Positions 1,371 through 57,302 of a DNA stretch of 64,000 nucleotides are shown piece after piece; positions within the stretch are counted from its first letter, which is position 1, and each line of letters opens with the position of its first letter. The translations under genes and the position numbers were made by a program. Source of the stretch: Bacillus sp. es.036 (GTDB lineage Bacteria; Bacillota; Bacilli; Bacillales; Guptibacillaceae); NCBI RefSeq assembly GCF_002563635.1, contig NZ_PDIZ01000001.1:2418001-2482000 (forward strand). The letters run 5' to 3'. Below the pieces are notes generated by a model, which did not search any database, was not told the origin of the DNA, and was given only the letters and a program-made list of their open reading frames with translations.

Positions 1371-1654
1371 AAAAATAAAAAACCTCCCATCCCCGTTGTT
1401 TATCAACAGGGACGAGAGGTTGAGAATCTACTATTCACAATCACCCGCGGTACCACCCGGCTTAGTGCTAAAAAAAGCACTCACTTAAGGCCTTTAACGC
1501 AGGCATACGGGTCACCTTACTCCATTCAGGTTCCGATTCAAAGGTGAGTTCGCAAAGGTTCTATGTTAACTTCCACCAACCGTTAACTCTCTAGCAATAG
1601 AATCCTTGGTACTATTCCTTATCATTATCTTTAACTTCACAAATTACGTATATA
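1371..1654 (-). ncRNA. T-box leader (tRNA-Leu sensing) of leuS
   Basis: On the minus strand the conserved T-box core GGGTGGTACCGCG lies at about 1446-1458. It is followed by a terminator-type hairpin (1381-1421) and a T-rich tail (1371-1380). Upstream, stem I carries the context GAACTCACC; the likely specifier is CTC (bases 1546-1548), a leucine codon followed by a purine, matching the downstream gene. Known mechanism: uncharged tRNA pairs with the specifier and the T-box bulge and favours the antiterminator. Limits are approximate. Confidence 0.95.
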
Positions 1655-2224: not shown

Positions 2225-2797
2225 ATGACCCTTCAACGTATCTTACCTTTTACAAGAACGCTACTGGACTCAGTCTTAGCAGAAGGTGGCGTTGCTATTG
2301 ACGGTACTTGTGGAAATGGACACGACACTCTCTTTCTAGCCGAATCGGTTGGTAAGTCAGGCAAAGTGTATGGATTTGATATCCAATCTGAAGCAATAAA
2401 ATCGACCGAAAAAAGACTGCAAGAAGCTGACCAATATACCCAGGTCGCTCTATTCCAGGAGACTCACGCTTCCATTAATAACAACATTGAGAAGGAACAT
2501 ATAGGGAAAGTTTCTGCCGCAATCTTTAATCTTGGTTACCTGCCAGGAGGAGATAAATCCATTGTCACTAACGCTGAAGAAACAATTCAATCTGTAACAG
2601 ATATCTTACGTTTGCTTCATTCAGGAGGACTTCTCATTCTAGTTGTCTATCCAGGGCATCCAGAAGGAAAAATTGAAAGTGAAAAGGTCACAAATTTCGC
2701 TACCGATCTTAATCAGTCACATTTTCAGGTTCTAAAATATCAATTTATTAACCAAATCAATGATCCCCCCTATATTCTTGCGATCAGCAAAAAATAA
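2225..2797 (+). CDS. mnmM: SAM-dependent tRNA wobble-uridine methyltransferase (MnmM/YtqB family)
   Basis: YtqB-family Rossmann methyltransferase, 190 aa. Motif I is DGTCGNGHD at residues 26-34, followed by an acidic end of strand 2 (GFDIQ, about 50-54) and the NLGYLPGGD block at 102-110, characteristic of this family. In B. subtilis and S. aureus the family was shown to methylate nm5(s2)U34 of tRNA to mnm5(s2)U34 (established knowledge; assignment here is by family resemblance). The start follows AAAGGAATAG. The gene is alone on its strand, with a strong bidirectional terminator overlapping its stop codon. Confidence 0.85.
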   Translation: MTLQRILPFTRTLLDSVLAEGGVAIDGTCGNGHDTLFLAESVGKSGKVYGFDIQSEAIKSTEKRLQEADQYTQVALFQETHASINNNIEKEHIGKVSAAIFNLGYLPGGDKSIVTNAEETIQSVTDILRLLHSGGLLILVVYPGHPEGKIESEKVTNFATDLNQSHFQVLKYQFINQINDPPYILAISKK

Positions 2798-2828
2798 GGG
2801 CTGTGCTTCTGCACAGCCCTTATTTTTT
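2791..2828. terminator. Bidirectional terminator between mnmM and the convergent small gene
   Basis: Near-perfect inverted repeat, AAAATAAGGGCTGTGC with its complement around a 4-base loop, with A and T runs on either side. It overlaps the stop codons of both convergent genes. Confidence 0.9.
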
Positions 2829-3129
2829 ATAGAATTCCCATTGATTCAATATGATCCCTTGTTTTTTTATTCCCTAATTTGTGTATCAGGCTATATATCT
2901 CTTTCATATGGTTATCATAGTCATCATTGTTTTTATCTTCATGATAACTCATGGCAGGGACATGAGCACGGTATAAGGAAAGTCGACTATCCTTATCTGT
3001 TAGATCAAAAAGCTCACTAAGCTCGTAAATATCTTCCTCATCTGCATCAATTTCAAAATGATAACTTGATGCTCCTTGATCTTCCAAAATTTCACCTGAA
3101 CTAACCTCTACGTAATAACGCTTCTTCAT
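2827..3129 (-). CDS. Uncharacterised small protein, paralogue of the gene at 20644-20982
   Basis: 100-residue acidic cytoplasmic protein of unknown function. I chose the ATG at 3129 because AAAGGGG lies eight bases upstream; an in-frame ATG at 3171 has no such site. The C-terminal motif IYSLIHKLGNKKTRDHIESMG closely resembles the end of the protein at 20644-20982 (IYELYQMIYRLGTDKTK..IDQMG), and both begin with a short strand-like segment ending in a conserved Gly-Glu. They are therefore paralogues within one window. No catalytic motif is visible. It lies downstream of ytpB on the same strand, with a 66-base gap. Confidence 0.75.
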   Translation of the reverse strand: MKKRYYVEVSSGEILEDQGASSYHFEIDADEEDIYELSELFDLTDKDSRLSLYRAHVPAMSYHEDKNNDDYDNHMKEIYSLIHKLGNKKTRDHIESMGIL

Positions 3130-3195
3130 CTTAAGAGCCCCTTTCAAAATCCTATAGGCTTCTTTTCTCACGAATGAGTGTTTTTTATACGCGTT

Positions 3196-4266
3196 TTACT
3201 GAGAAGCTTTGTGAAGTCTTCTATAAACCCATCCATTAAAGTAAAAGAAAATGCTCGATCGTCCACCAATACGAATGATTTTACGAGCTAACGAACGAAC
3301 ATCTTTCTGTTCCATTACTTTGCGATCGGCAAGGTATATTCCAAGTAATCCCTTATTAATTAAACGGTGGAAAGAAGAATGGGGAAGTCCCTCTACGCTT
3401 TTATCTGCTTCCTTAATAAAGTGCGCAACACGCTTGGCGAGCTCATCATTGTCTTTATAATAAAAACAAAAATTCAAATCTCCACCAGCTCGATCCTCTT
3501 CCTGATCAATAAAGTAATCCAACATAATATGAAGCCCCTGTACCCACGGAAAGTACCCATCTTTAATCATCGCTGTTCCACCTTGTGGGATTTCTTCACC
3601 TAGTGAGTACGAGACAAGACAAAATATACCCAACGTTGATCCTGCACAAGCAGAAAATTCGTTCCAAGTCATTTCTGGCATTTGCTTCTTATGCTGGTCA
3701 AACCAGCTCTTCAATCTTGGCACGCGTTCTTCCTCTTTCACATGTTTATGTACCTGAAGATCACAATAGTAATGACAGAGTTCTAGTAAGGCCGGCTGCA
3801 CTTCGGATTGATTTGGCAACTCGCGAATTACCTTCTGACACGTCTGAACAAGTTCAACTAGATAACCGCCATCATCTTTTTCTTCCCGATACCGATAATA
3901 ATGATTAGATGCTTCAACCTCAGGCGAAAGAGCCTCAATCATTGCCTCATGTAGAGCACTGAAGTCTTTTGGATCAAGTGAAGTACTTCGGTCACATAAG
4001 TTATCCAGGTAGTCGCTAATTGTCTGATAAGCAGCGATAAATGAAATCGAACGATCAATCTGCTTTCCAGCAAGTAACCCATAGATCCCTCCACCTTCAC
4101 AGTGAAACGTTTTTGAATCAATGCTGTCTAGCGCCTGTTTTCTAAGTTCAGGATTTGGGATTTGTTCAGCCCGTCTCCTCCAATATTCTAATTCATGATG
4201 AACCCTCGGTAAGACGCGTCGATAGATACTATACATCAGCGTCCAGGGTTGACTCGGTACTTTCAA
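3196..4266 (-). CDS. ytpB: Tetraprenyl-beta-curcumene synthase (YtpB, DUF2600 family)
   Basis: 356-residue all-helical class I terpene synthase. In B. subtilis YtpB converts all-E-heptaprenyl (C35) diphosphate to tetraprenyl-beta-curcumene, the precursor of sesquarterpenes (established). The sequence has the acidic metal-binding segment DYLDN at residues 85-89, a variant of DDxxD, preceded by CEGGGIYGLLAG (56-67) and followed by CDRSTSLDP; a second acidic stretch, DYFIDQEEDRAGGDLNFCFYY, lies near residue 250. It is followed on the same strand by the small paralogue gene and preceded by ytpA (gap 17 bases), so ytpA-ytpB is probably one operon. The cyclase acting next appears to be encoded at 45465-47285. 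Confidence 0.92.
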   Translation of the reverse strand: MKVPSQPWTLMYSIYRRVLPRVHHELEYWRRRAEQIPNPELRKQALDSIDSKTFHCEGGGIYGLLAGKQIDRSISFIAAYQTISDYLDNLCDRSTSLDPKDFSALHEAMIEALSPEVEASNHYYRYREEKDDGGYLVELVQTCQKVIRELPNQSEVQPALLELCHYYCDLQVHKHVKEEERVPRLKSWFDQHKKQMPEMTWNEFSACAGSTLGIFCLVSYSLGEEIPQGGTAMIKDGYFPWVQGLHIMLDYFIDQEEDRAGGDLNFCFYYKDNDELAKRVAHFIKEADKSVEGLPHSSFHRLINKGLLGIYLADRKVMEQKDVRSLARKIIRIGGRSSIFFYFNGWVYRRLHKASQ

Positions 4267-9887: not shown

Positions 9888-11084
9888 TTAAATTCCTGCA
9901 CCCTGTTTAAGGGATTCTGAACGATCCGTTTGTTCCCAAGGAAGTTCAATGTCCGTACGTCCAAAATGACCATACGCAGCCGTTTGCTTATAAATAGGAC
10001 GGCGAAGATCAAGCATCTTAATAATGCCTGCAGGACGAAGGTCAAAGTTCTCTCTTACTAGCTCAACAAGTCGTTCCTCTGACACTTTTCCAGTACCAAA
10101 TGTATCAATCGCAATCGATACCGGCTGAGCAACACCAATCGCGTAGGCAAGCTGAACTTCACAACGATCGGCAAGACCTGCAGCGACGAGGTTCTTAGCT
10201 ACATAACGAGCAGCATATGCAGCAGAACGGTCGACTTTCGTAGCATCCTTACCAGAGAATGCACCACCACCGTGACGCGCATAACCACCATAAGTATCAA
10301 CAATGATTTTTCTTCCTGTTAAACCTGCATCACCTTGTGGCCCACCAATCACAAAACGGCCAGTTGGGTTAATGAAGTATTTTGTTTCATCATCAATCAA
10401 TTCAGCAGGAACAACTGGCTTCACAACATGTTCCTTAATGTTACGCTGAATTTGTTCAAGTGAAATTTCAGGGTGGTGTTGTGTTGAAACAACGATCGTA
10501 TCAACGCGAACTGGCTTTCCAGATTCATCATATTCAACCGTAACCTGAGTCTTTCCGTCAGGACGAAGATAAGGAAGAATTTCTTCTTTTCTTACTTCAC
10601 TCAATCGACGAGCTAGCTTATGCGCAAGAGAGATTGGTAGCGGCATTAATTCAGAAGTTTCATTACATGCGTAACCAAACATAAGACCCTGATCACCTGC
10701 ACCAATTGAATCAATTTCACTTTCTGACATTGTGCCTTCACGCGCTTCAAGAGCAACGTTTACACCTGCTGCTATATCGGCAGACTGCTCATCAATAGAT
10801 GAAAGCACCGCACATGTTTCAGCATCAAATCCGTATTTTGCACGTGTATAACCGATTGCTTGAATCGTTTCACGAACGACTTTTGGAATATCCACATAGT
10901 GCGAAGTTGTAATTTCACCGGAAACTAATACAAGCCCAGTTGTTACTGTAGTTTCACAGGCAACGCGCGCATTTGGGTCATGCGCAAGAATATCATCCAG
11001 AATGGCATCGGAAATCTGATCTGAAATTTTATCAGGATGCCCCTCTGTTACTGACTCAGAAGTAAACAAACGACGATTACTCAC
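9888..11084 (-). CDS. metK: S-adenosylmethionine synthetase
   Basis: 398-residue methionine adenosyltransferase: ATP + methionine + water give SAM, phosphate and diphosphate. Family signatures are [14 protein letters not shown] at residues 7-20, [12 protein letters not shown] near 125, and [19 protein letters not shown] near 270, the phosphate-binding loop. Length and termini match B. subtilis MetK. The start has AAGGAGG upstream. A SAM-I riboswitch in the leader makes synthesis subject to SAM feedback. SAM feeds MnmM and SpeH, both encoded in this window. Confidence 0.98.
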
Positions 11085-11239: not shown

Positions 11240-11403
11240 AAGCCCTTTCCTTCTATTTAGAGGGAAAAGGAGCTGGTATCTCATGCCTTTCGCCTCTTAT
11301 CTTCCAAGACTATTGTCTTGCAGGTTAGCACCTTAATCCTGTTGTATAGGAGTTGGTTGCTGAGCTTCATCGGGCCTGTCCCTCCGCCTGCTCGGGATAA
11401 GAG
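11240..11403 (-). ncRNA. SAM-I (S-box) riboswitch of metK with terminator
   Basis: Minus strand: P1 arms CTCTTATC (from 11403) and GATAAGAG (11294-11301) close an aptamer containing GAGGGAC, the kink-turn/pseudoknot segment GATGAAGCTCAGCAACC and GGTGCTAAC, the diagnostic S-box blocks. A terminator hairpin follows at 11240-11274, then six T residues. Binding of SAM should stabilise the aptamer and allow termination before metK. Confidence 0.97.
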
Positions 11404-11419
11404 TATCCATTCTCGACAT

Positions 11420-11448
11420 ATAATAACGTAGATAAAAGGAAGTGTCAA
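11420..11448 (-). promoter_or_regulatory. SigA-type promoter of the metK riboswitch transcript
   Basis: TTGACA (11443-11448), a 17-bp spacer and TATTAT (11420-11425) on the minus strand, just upstream of the SAM-I aptamer. The first repeat unit begins four bases beyond the -35 box. Confidence 0.85.
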
Positions 11449-11451
11449 TAA

Positions 11452-12055
11452 CGAAAAGCGGAAGCGCCCGTTTAGCCTCGACAAGCGCTGGAGCCCCATA
11501 AAAAGAACACGGTCTTTGTGTTCATTTTATGGGGTGAAGCGATCGAGAGGCTGGGCGCTGCAGCTAGACACGAAAAGCGGAAGCCTTCGGTTAGACCCGG
11601 CAGGCACTGGAGCCTTTCAATATGAACACGGTCTTTGTGTTCAGGTTGAAAGGTGAAGTGACCGAGGGTCTGGAGGCTGCAGCTGGACACGAAAAGCGGA
11701 AGTGGGCGTTTAGGGTCGACAAGTGCTGGAGCCCTACAAAAAGAACACGGTCTTTGTGTTCATTTTGTAGGGGGAAGCGATCGAGACCCTGCCCACTGCA
11801 GCTAGACATGAAAAGCGGAGTGGGCCTGCTTAAATCCGCAGGATGTTGGAACCCTTTCGACTGAGACGCTTTTTGTCTCAATCGAAAGGGTGAAACAGCC
11901 GGAGGATTTGGCCCGCGCAGCTAGACACGAAAAGCGGAGACGAGCGGTTAGAAACGGAGATATTGGAACTCCTGAACTGGAACACGCTTTTTGTGTTCCT
12001 GTGAAGGAGTGAAATATCGTAGTTTCTGCGAGTCGCAGCTAGACACGAAAAGCGG
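11452..12055. repeat. Array of five 118-119 bp modular hairpin repeats (units A-E)
   Basis: The conserved boundary (C/T)GAAAAGCGG occurs at 11452, 11571, 11690, 11809, 11928 and 12046: spacings 119, 119, 119, 119 and 118. Each unit ends in CAGCT(A/G)GACA(C/T). Inside, each unit is a nested inverted repeat: outer stem (AGCGCCC/GGGCGCT in A; AGTGGGC/GCCCACT in C), middle stem (AGCCTC/GAGGCT in A; AGACCC/GGGTCT in B; AAATCC/GGATTT in D), inner stem (AGCCCCATAAAA and complement in A) and an apical GAACAC/GTGTTC or TGAGAC/GTCTCA. Bases differ between units but pairing is kept. No protein-coding sense is evident. The array fills the metK-pckA interval. A second array lies at 35046-35411. Confidence 0.9.
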
Positions 12056-12102
12056 AACCCTGACTCGAAAGAACTGGATTATTTATTCATTACCTTCACA
12101 AT

Positions 12103-34296: not shown

Positions 34297-34543
34297 CGTA
34301 GCTTTAGAGAGGAAAGCACTTTAGAGGGAAGCACTTCTTTTTAATCTAATTAGCGGAATTAATTAGATTTTCGAGGAATTATCTCTTAAGATCGCAGAAT
34401 TAATTGGTTTTTCGTGGAAATATTGAGAATTTCGCGGAAATATAGCAAGAACCAGACATAAAAGGAAAAAAAGCTAGCTTCTTCCCCGCTAATTTTCCCT
34501 TTTTATAGCCAATTGCTCGTGTATACTGTAAATAAGTACATAG

Positions 34544-34656
34544 AAAAAAGCGGAAGCGTCCGATTAACCTCAACAAAATCTTGAACCTAAAAAAATTGTC
34601 CGGTGTTCATTTTATTGATGAAGGAATGATAAGTTTTGGCGCGACAGCTAAATTGG
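34544..34656. repeat. Degenerate copy of the 119-bp modular repeat
   Basis: Starts with AAAAAAGCGGAAGCG and ends with GCGCGACAGCTAAA, the two conserved ends of the repeat (compare CGAAAAGCGG and GCGCAGCTAGAC). The inside, CGATTAACCTCAAC, GTGTTCATTTTAT and GATGAAG, still resembles unit A but pairing is partly lost. It lies directly in front of the thioesterase gene, whose ribosome binding site comes right after it. Confidence 0.7.
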
Positions 34657-34665
34657 AGGAATGAG

Positions 34666-35046
34666 ATGGAATTCGCAAATACAATGCTAGAGGCACTCGG
34701 AATCAAAGCCATTACACTAACACCTGAAAAAGTCGTTCTTGAAATGCCAGTTGGACCGAGCACTCATCAGCCACTCGGATATCTTCACGGAGGTGCATCC
34801 GTTGCACTTGCAGAGTCAGCCGCAAGTATCGGTGGCACACTTAACCTTAACTCAGAAAACGAAGCCACATTCGGAATGGAAATCAACGCTAATCATCTAC
34901 GTAGCAAAAAAGACGGCGTTGTCCGAGCCATCGCTGAGCCGATCCACATTGGACGAAGAACAATGGTCTGGGAAATCAACATCGTCGACGAACAAGAAGA
35001 ACTAATCTGCATATCCCGCTGCACCCTAGCCGTTAAAAGGTATTAA
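34666..35046 (+). CDS. Hotdog thioesterase, probable DHNA-CoA hydrolase (MenI/YuxO-like)
   Basis: 126-residue PaaI-type acyl-CoA thioesterase. HQPLGYLHGGASVALAES contains the HGG loop and the catalytic Glu; FGMEINANHLRSKKDGVV and GRRTMVWEINIVDEQ follow the pattern of E. coli YdiI (MenI), which hydrolyses DHNA-CoA. All other early men genes lie alongside, and a DHNA-CoA hydrolase is otherwise missing, so this role is likely (inference). Start ATG 34666 has TTGGAGG six bases upstream; a TTG at 34636 would take residues from the degenerate repeat and is rejected. The stop codon touches the next repeat unit, so the gene is enclosed by repeats. Confidence 0.85.
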   Translation: MEFANTMLEALGIKAITLTPEKVVLEMPVGPSTHQPLGYLHGGASVALAESAASIGGTLNLNSENEATFGMEINANHLRSKKDGVVRAIAEPIHIGRRTMVWEINIVDEQEELICISRCTLAVKRY

Positions 35047-35411
35047 GAAAAGCGGAGCGGGCCAGCCTAAATCCGCAGGAAGTTGGAGCCCATGAGATTG
35101 AGACGCTTTTTGTCTCATTCGATTGGGCGAAACAGCCGGAGGATTTGGCCCGCGTAGCTGGACATGAAAAGCGGAGACGATCTCTTACAAACGGAGATAT
35201 TGGAACTCTTGAACTAGAACACGCTTTTTGTGTTCTGGTGAAAGAGTGAAATATCGTAGTTTCTGCAAGTAACAGCTAGACACGAAAAGCGGAAGCGCCC
35301 GTTTAGCCTCGACAAGCGCTGGAGCCCCATAAAAAGAACACGGTCTTTGTGTTCATTTTATGGGGTGAAGCGATCGAGAGGCTGGGCGCTGCAGCTGGAC
35401 ACGAAAAGCGG
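35046..35411. repeat. Second modular repeat array (units D', E', A')
   Basis: GAAAAGCGG boundaries occur at 35046, 35165, 35283 and 35402: spacings 119, 118 and 119, the same lengths as the corresponding units D, E and A of the array at 11452-12055. Unit A' (from 35283) differs from unit A by a single base in the conserved tail (CTGGACAC for CTAGACAC). D' differs from D in the outer stem by GCGGGCC for GTGGGCC opposite GGCCCGC, replacing a G-U with a G-C pair. The array starts at the thioesterase stop codon. Confidence 0.9.
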
Positions 35412-35473
35412 AAGCGTACGAGTGTCTGACCACTTGCAGTTCAACATCACTACACTCATTTAAACCATAGAAT

Positions 35474-35505
35474 CCAAAAAGAATCCCGTCACTATTGACG
35501 GGATT
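35474..35505 (-). terminator. Terminator of the zinc-ribbon small gene
   Basis: AATCCCGTCA / TGACGGGATT arms, 4-base loop, TTCTTTTTGG tail on the minus strand; overlaps the stop codon at 35492. Confidence 0.75.
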
Positions 35506-56981: not shown

Positions 56982-57302
56982 TTGGGGTATCAATAAACCC
57001 GATATTAACAACTAGCTCCTTTAAAATAAGGAGAACTAAAATTCATAACTGGAAAGGTATGAACAGCATGATTCTAATTGGCTTGTATCAAGTTAATGGC
57101 CATACTACAATTGCTGTTGATCCTCCTCACTCACACTGGCGCGGCTTCGGAGCCGTAAGGATGGAAGAGAGGTAGGGCTTTCGTTGTTTGAGAGATCAAC
57201 AGATCTCTATGGTATGTTTACCGCGGCAATGAAGGAGTTACTGTTAATAAATAACGATCGTTATATATAATGAAAGAGCGCATCAAAGCGATGCGCTCTT
57301 TG
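56982..57302 (+). ncRNA. Candidate structured non-coding RNA (about 320 nt), family unknown
   Basis: A consensus promoter, about 290 bases with no long reading frame, and a strong terminator (57273-57301). Several local hairpins are visible: GGGGTATCAATAAACCC, CTCCTTTAAAATAAGGAG, TTCATA...TATGAA, CGGCTTCGGAGCCG (57153 area) and AGAGATC AACA GATCTCT (57212 area). A 35-codon frame (57068-57175, MILIGLYQVNGHTTIAVDPP...) lies inside with a weak site (GGAAAGG), so a short peptide is possible. I could not match it to T-box, S-box, TPP, FMN, M-box, yybP, glmS, 6S, tmRNA, SRP or RNase P patterns. No plus-strand gene follows, so it is not a leader. Confidence 0.5.

Follow-up and report, generated by a model that had tools for sequence, protein, structure and literature searches.

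The window, a stretch of 64,000 nucleotides of the Bacillus sp. es.036 genome, carries two arrays of a tandemly repeated element. The first comprises five units of about 119 bp (11451-12045), with the start of a sixth at its right edge, and lies between a SAM riboswitch upstream of metK and pckA, gene names assigned from the ORF translations. The riboswitch (Rfam match 11294-11403, minus strand) precedes the metK ORF (9888-11084); elsewhere in the window, Rfam matches mark a T-box leader (1405-1634, minus strand) and the small RNA BsrC (57111-57197, minus strand; 80.3 bits, E 1.8e-12). The unit-start motif CGAAAAGCGGA occurs at 11452, 11571, 11690, 11809 (one mismatch), 11928 and 12046, at spacings of 119, 119, 119, 119 and 118. 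Allowing up to one mismatch, the motif occurs 10 times in the window, where 1.38 occurrences are expected, and none of 100 shuffles reached that number. The spacings and the shuffle test confirm the five-unit array with a 118-119 bp period that had been proposed in the initial annotation.

All units of both arrays lie on the plus strand. In the first array they are a1 (11451-11570; outer stem AGCGCCC/GGGCGCT, second stem AGCCTC/GAGGCT; best model score 138.9 bits), a2 (11570-11689; second stem AGACCC/GGGTCT; 132.9 bits), a3 (11689-11808; outer stem AGTGGGC/GCCCACT, second stem AGGGTC/GACCCT; 135.8 bits), a4 (11808-11927; second stem AAATCC/GGATTT, a third-stem variant; 100.8 bits) and a5 (11927-12045; GACGAGC class, G.A mismatches in the outer stem, second stem AGAAAC/GTTTCT; 120.1 bits). 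The truncated sixth unit is a left end only (12046-12061), whose first 16 nt align to unit positions 1-17. The second array (35045-35401) holds three units: b1 (35045-35164; AAATCC class), which begins at the stop codon of a thioesterase-like ORF (34636-35046), b2 (35164-35282; a5-like class) and b3 (35282-35401; the class of a1; 138.2 bits). Together with the five at 11451-12045, these make up the eight units mentioned in the initial annotation. To the right of b3, the left foot of a unit is followed directly by a right foot (35402-35440, plus strand), the flank aligning to unit positions 77-113; we read this remnant as an internally deleted unit, of which a fuller version is present in some orthologous genomes. 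An intrinsic-terminator-like hairpin (35482-35505, plus strand) faces the right end of the second array. An AT-rich segment just upstream of the thioesterase-like ORF (34543-34654, plus strand) matches the model weakly (30.3 bits, E 1.2e-4) and is possibly a decayed unit.

Each of the units a1 to a5 folds on the plus strand into one long imperfect hairpin, with z of -5.1 to -6.6 as RNA and -4.7 to -6.7 as DNA, and none of 200 shuffles was as stable; the minus strand of the fifth, the sole unit for which it was tried, folded more weakly (z -3.0, 2/200 shuffles). The differing but still-pairing stem sequences originally listed were all found in the units. The three nested stems into which they had been arranged exist as well, but understate the structure, as the consensus comprises seven helix segments with 34 pairs in all. 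In an alignment of 66 distinct es.036 rows, which was fitted to the model and so leans towards structure, 94.0% of the pair cells hold standard pairs, compared with 34-48% when the partner is slid; double-change cells number 439 against 132 in shuffles (0/500), and 25 of the 34 pairs show double changes. We also aligned by sequence only, with MAFFT, 26 units from 26 genomes of 15 genera (one from the window, two from other genomes of the same genus and 23 from other genera). Here, double changes that keep pairing occur in 29 of 33 predicted pairs, the independence from the model being partial, as the units were picked by model score. Covariation, the proposed test of the fold, is very strong in both the es.036 rows and the sequence-only cross-genus alignment.

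What is mostly kept across genera in the 26-unit alignment is GAAAAGCG at the left, TGGA and GAA around the third stem, a T-rich loop and AGCTRGA at the right, whereas most stem bases, unlike these unpaired motifs, are variable. The argument that covariation implies selection on the fold holds to this extent: the fold is better conserved than the sequence, the covariation is strong, and both unpaired motifs and G.A mismatches are retained between genera. It needs caution, however, for mosaic units with halves from different classes exist, and exchange between units must therefore also shape the stems. Among es.036 units, stem classes appear in varied pairings, one outer stem being found with different second stems. 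Template-switch correction of quasi-palindromes could contribute further to the covariation. Taken to its extreme, such correction, together with duplication, would restore pairing mechanically in neutral tandem repeats, with no selection on structure. Identical tandem copies, alternating dimers and mosaic half-exchanges would fit such a process, but palindrome correction should erase mismatches, whereas many genera retain similar asymmetric bulges, G.A mismatches and end motifs; nor would it account for how the units reached 33 sites or for their replication-strand bias, described below. This reading is already disfavoured, and we regard it as very unlikely.

Two observations bear on which strand folds. 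Summed over four alignments with partly shared rows, stem mismatches are G.A/A.G in 203 cases against C.T/T.C in 10, and G.T/T.G in 77 against A.C/C.A in 24. In two of the four alignments, the GA:CT counts were 56:8 and 17:0, where column shuffles gave ratios of 1.7 and 1.4, and the GT:AC ratios were 2.4 and 3.0, where column shuffles gave 1.0. In addition, the plus strand is predicted to be the more stable one in 84 of 86 units by RNA parameters and in 85 of 86 by DNA parameters. Given these mismatch types and folding energies, the plus strand is the folding strand, either as RNA or as single-stranded DNA.

Trained on the eight window units, the covariance model R1 revealed that the family extends genome-wide and across the order. 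In the es.036 genome it found at least 86 full units in 33 arrays, with 150 of 517 candidates scored; 13 other genomes of the same genus hold 45-101 units each, and the one genome from another genus of the family holds 11. With 18 candidates scored per genome, matches were found in at least 150 of the 199 genomes sampled from the order and at least 76 of 97 genera. The es.036 and order-wide counts are lower bounds, since only part of the candidates was scored. A further model search of the window and the es.036 loci gave 69 matches only, a low count because abutting matches overlap. The suggestion that other Bacillaceae may have similar repeats thus proved right by the model search and by a pattern scan of named genomes, which gave 75 stretches, in records titled Bacillus, Neobacillus, Mesobacillus, Metabacillus, Planococcus, Planomicrobium, Pseudalkalibacillus, Alkalihalobacillus and, twice, Chryseobacterium. 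The Chryseobacterium sp. ISL-80 record (L348, L353) that holds this Bacillales repeat is probably mislabelled. No Rfam family reached its gathering score over the first array, the best sub-threshold match in 11400-12100 being Flavo-1 (24.1 bits against a gathering score of 42), and unit a1 alone, used as query, had no match at E<=1e-5 in plasmid and phage collections. We found no description of the repeat among the titles listed in our searches of the open-licence literature. The ~120-nt hairpin thus apparently represents a large repeat family of many Bacillus-like bacteria, unnamed in that literature. The initial annotation was right, as far as it went, about structural selection and missed a mobile-looking, orientation-biased and turning-over family, recognition of which needed other sequences.

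We compared the occupancy of the same sites in related genomes. The second-array site is occupied, by units or a fragment of one, in nine of 14 genomes of the genus and empty in five; one genome (G005) holds a half unit only, and four (G000, G008, G009 and G010), whose adjoining gene is 96-98% identical, have differing units. At the site of the first array, 12 of the 14 hold units or parts of them, in varied types, numbers and mosaics, and no unit was detected at this site in the other two (G013 and G002). A site in another genus, that of genome G126, was compared in 20 genomes: three are filled (G126, G219 and G218), with two different right-hand tails, two contain remnants (G223 and G207), 13 have a short spacer and no unit, and two have other sequence (G220 and G222). 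Between G218 and the empty G208, the difference is a whole element of ~190 bp, with a stop codon on one side and a terminator A-tract on the other. We infer from this comparison of genomes at least two insertions at this site. More generally, such between-species comparisons suggest that units insert, and hence that they may be actively mobilised. No clear target-site duplication was established at the sites compared, one of which is compatible with, and does not prove, duplication of an A-tract; a check for terminal inverted repeats of the type found in MITEs found, outside the variable stem, only the pairs of the 3-bp AGC/GCT foot.

Growth within sites is also apparent. The es.036 array C1:125269 consists of alternating unit dimers. 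In genome G114, one locus (L107) has three identical abutting 120-bp units, and four abutting units at C1:3581695-3582170 have identical scores; such identity suggests very recent tandem duplication. In G126, at least 16 of 40 sites contain a unit within a unit, in the same orientation and at a fixed point after GGACCGAA. A conserved AT-rich tail, of two types, comes after the hairpin there, the second type being counted by script at 12 of the 40 sites. An exact TTATCCACA, the DnaA-box consensus, is present in the AT-rich tail to the right of the unit at 6/40 sites (L273, L286, L292, L293, L302 and L304). The tail with this motif looks origin-like, and is known from the G126 genus, where it was looked for. 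A different hairpin repeat, similar to CGCCACGTCCTGTGGC, is inserted into the unit at L278 near the TGG of the third stem, and at L122 the motif CACGTCCTGTGG, which resembles the CGCCACGTCCTGTGGC-like repeat, flanks a unit. Short degenerate direct repeats resembling TTTTGGCCAATAAATC and TTCGCGGAATTAATCC lie in the right flanks of the es.036 arrays C1:125269, C1:701467, C1:788955 and C1:3628882.

The arrays are oriented relative to replication. With the leading strand assigned by GC skew, they oppose it at 25 of 33 es.036 sites (p 0.005) and, among the matches listed, at 67 of 78 sites in G126 (p 6e-11) and 27 of 31 in G114 (p 3e-5), the strand counts coming from those matches that were listed, 84 of 118 and 46 of 76, respectively; G023 and G139, for which no skew was sampled, were left out. 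Gene direction could underlie such a bias, and we considered gene-neutral sites, that is, those between convergent or divergent genes or inside tandem genes on the lagging strand. Of these, 26 of 30 oppose the leading strand (p 6e-5; 15/16 in G126, where context was taken from 40 stretches covering about every second listed site and giving 41 sites in the context table, and 11/14 in es.036). The convergent-gene sites of es.036 were less one-sided (7/10). As the bias persists where gene direction is neutral, it follows replication; it may reflect insertion, or the loss or better survival of one orientation. By strand bookkeeping, the folding plus strand lies mostly on the leading-strand template, and transposition of the IS608 type predicts the reverse.

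This orientation also bears on whether the units are cis-acting 3' untranslated RNA elements, stabilising, attenuating or otherwise regulating mRNAs and kept for the benefit of the host. Among 17 arrays with an upstream ORF on the same strand, 11 start -6 to +2 nt from the end of that ORF, as such a role would predict, although ORFs in the context tables were called mechanically, without a gene caller, and some of the upstream ones may be spurious. Between 23S and 5S rRNA in two genera lies a unit whose first base is the third past the 23S 3' end; the better folding of the plus strand likewise fits an RNA function. However, of the 33 arrays, 16 have their upstream gene on the opposite strand and 14 run antisense to both neighbours, as do 20 of 41 G126 sites, and orientation tracks replication at the gene-neutral sites. 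Unit content differs between close relatives, with some sites empty, and Rfam gave no gathering-level match. A cis-acting RNA role is less likely than a mobile element, and we consider it quite unlikely.

The arrays are polar as well. The left half-hairpin of another unit lies at the right end of 27 of the 33 es.036 arrays, breaking off between unit positions 14 and 67, no further than the apical loop; the mirror case at the left end was found in one of 33. When 100 random windows were put to this test as a control, 29 attained the score, and in one of the 100 the match was also anchored at a unit start. Halves on the left side were seen in array C1:2670391 (a left half) and array C1:679307 (a right half). 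A terminator-like hairpin occurs within 200 nt to the right of 15 of the 33 arrays and to the left of none, compared with 22 of 310 random windows, by a strict finder that missed some terminators visible by eye.

One way to produce such ends would be retro-like copying from a structured RNA or a single-stranded template: synthesis would start precisely at the left end on a minus-sense template, a stall in the first arm would leave a half-hairpin, and the T-tract of a terminator would mark or prime the site. All 27 right-end halves stop before or at the apical loop, insertion occurs beside the A/T tracts of terminators and the replication-strand bias is present, as would be expected; a bias of this kind is known for some group II introns. 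But the half-units could be deletions, and the remnant of the second array keeps both feet. Moreover, no group II maturase match was found in 102 of 150 unit-bearing genomes, compared with 23 of 49 unit-free ones, nor in six of the seven genomes sampled from the same genus: es.036 has one GIIM frame, of 167 aa, and the six others have none. Group IIC introns, which lie beside terminator hairpins and have a link to replication and the lagging strand (PMC7923331), share both features with the family, but the element here is ~120-190 nt long, has no coding capacity, and lacks an accompanying maturase in those 102 genomes. Altogether we hold retro-like copying to be unlikely.

An alternative to copying would be the shuffling of attC-type hairpin sites by a tyrosine recombinase, as in integrons. 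A folded single strand with conserved unpaired bases, a free stem sequence and an array-like shuffling of unit types recall such sites. The boxes of attC sites have a GTT/AAC-type consensus, however, and no conserved boxes of this type were found at the unit ends; nor are there cassette genes between es.036 units, where the gaps of -1 to 2 nt leave no room for genes. We consider this explanation extremely unlikely.

Returning to a mobile hairpin element, we looked for an enzyme that could move it. The es.036 genome has five genes for REP-type tyrosine transposases and one of the IS200 type. The four REP-type proteins scanned scored 58-77 bits, below the curated cut-off of 80. All five REP-type genes lie within ~0.22 Mb (C1 3.09-3.31 Mb) on one strand. 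A REP transposase was found at E<=1e-12 in 100 of 150 unit-bearing and 20 of 49 unit-free genomes (p 0.002), and at E<=1e-3 in 106/150 and 27/49 (p 0.055), both uncorrected for descent. For any Y1 transposase, the figures were 128/150 and 31/49 (p 0.0017), which mixes in IS200; the association specific to REP is weaker. At the stricter cut, 18 of 58 high-copy genomes are without a clear REP transposase. No unit was detected near 30 Y1 loci of 16 genomes (25 REP-like and 5 IS200-like) with flanks of ~1.5 kb, where one match had an E of 0.48, nor near all six es.036 Y1 loci with wider flanks. At L201, two different palindromes of the GGGTCAGG type, unrelated to the units, lie 5' of a REP-type transposase ORF (2787-3404, minus strand) and may be that transposase's own repeats. 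A REP-associated tyrosine (HUH/Y1) transposase is the leading, if tentative, candidate for the mobiliser, which would be an enzyme acting in trans on folded single-stranded DNA. Group II maturase was rejected in this role, its association with the units being in the wrong direction (GIIM match in 48/150 unit-bearing and 26/49 unit-free genomes).

Among known repeats, REP and BIME elements with their RAYTs offer a likeness in being hairpin repeats at many intergenic sites, in genomes encoding REP-type tyrosine transposases; REPs measure 20-40 bp (PMC3733652), in contrast to ~120 nt here. The present family also has no invariant GTAG tag and no units beside the transposase genes examined: GTAG occurs in the right foot of 12 of 86 es.036 units and 5 of 26 cross-genome units, GCAG being the commonest (64/86). 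BOX elements of Streptococcus pneumoniae are likewise interspersed, modular, stem-loop-forming, intergenic and thought to be mobile, and PMC3049150 describes tandem inner modules that vary in number between strains, with 60.8% of elements on the leading strand, mirroring coding bias. Here, in contrast, the units lie mostly against the leading strand (the 67 of 78 G126 sites among the matches listed), the order is a different one, and each tandem module is a full ~120-nt hairpin; the comparison is by description. In BOX, boxA and boxC ends surround tandem boxB modules. The es.036 arrays consist of one repeated hairpin unit with no separate left-end module, a conserved right tail occurring in one other genus. 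Bhal-1 of Bacillus halodurans, also an intergenic stem-loop repeat family of a member of the Bacillaceae, has a reported size of 74 and 36 copies and was first described in PMC2267715; the comparison is by reported size and copy number, not sequence, so that identity is neither shown nor excluded.

The above results are probably best explained by a family of non-autonomous, mobile hairpin elements, analogous to REP and BOX, that are oriented by replication and recognised as the folded plus strand. Its fold, spread, empty and filled sites, turnover, polarity and orientation are features read from genome sequences. The recognised form would be the folded plus strand, an imperfect hairpin of ~120 nt with conserved unpaired purine motifs. 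Units would enter at gene ends, often by intrinsic terminators, with the right end towards the terminator and mostly in one orientation to the fork. As orientation is mostly fixed relative to the replication fork, insertion or survival would be coupled to replication. After entry, local duplication may build up head-to-tail arrays, whose units may swap halves close to the apical loop and whose hairpins may be lost through deletion. A bolder version, which we think rather unlikely, is that these repeats are a self-standing class of fork-directed mobile hairpin, whose ~120-nt folded plus strand would be copied or pasted beside intrinsic terminators by host machinery. The element would gain hairpins at its left end, and a half-hairpin would mark the point at which copying broke off. 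If this were true, arrays would record failed read-through of hairpins, and the nested units of the G126 genus would make the element a self-targeting, branching one.

The finding adds to the Bacillales a very widespread and structurally conserved repeat family, with no Rfam match in the window. The one-sided polarity towards terminators, the one-sided half-hairpin ends and the strong replication-strand bias are clear clues to its mechanism. Since close relatives hold empty, half-filled and reshuffled versions of one site, the origin and growth of structured repeats become directly testable in these bacteria.
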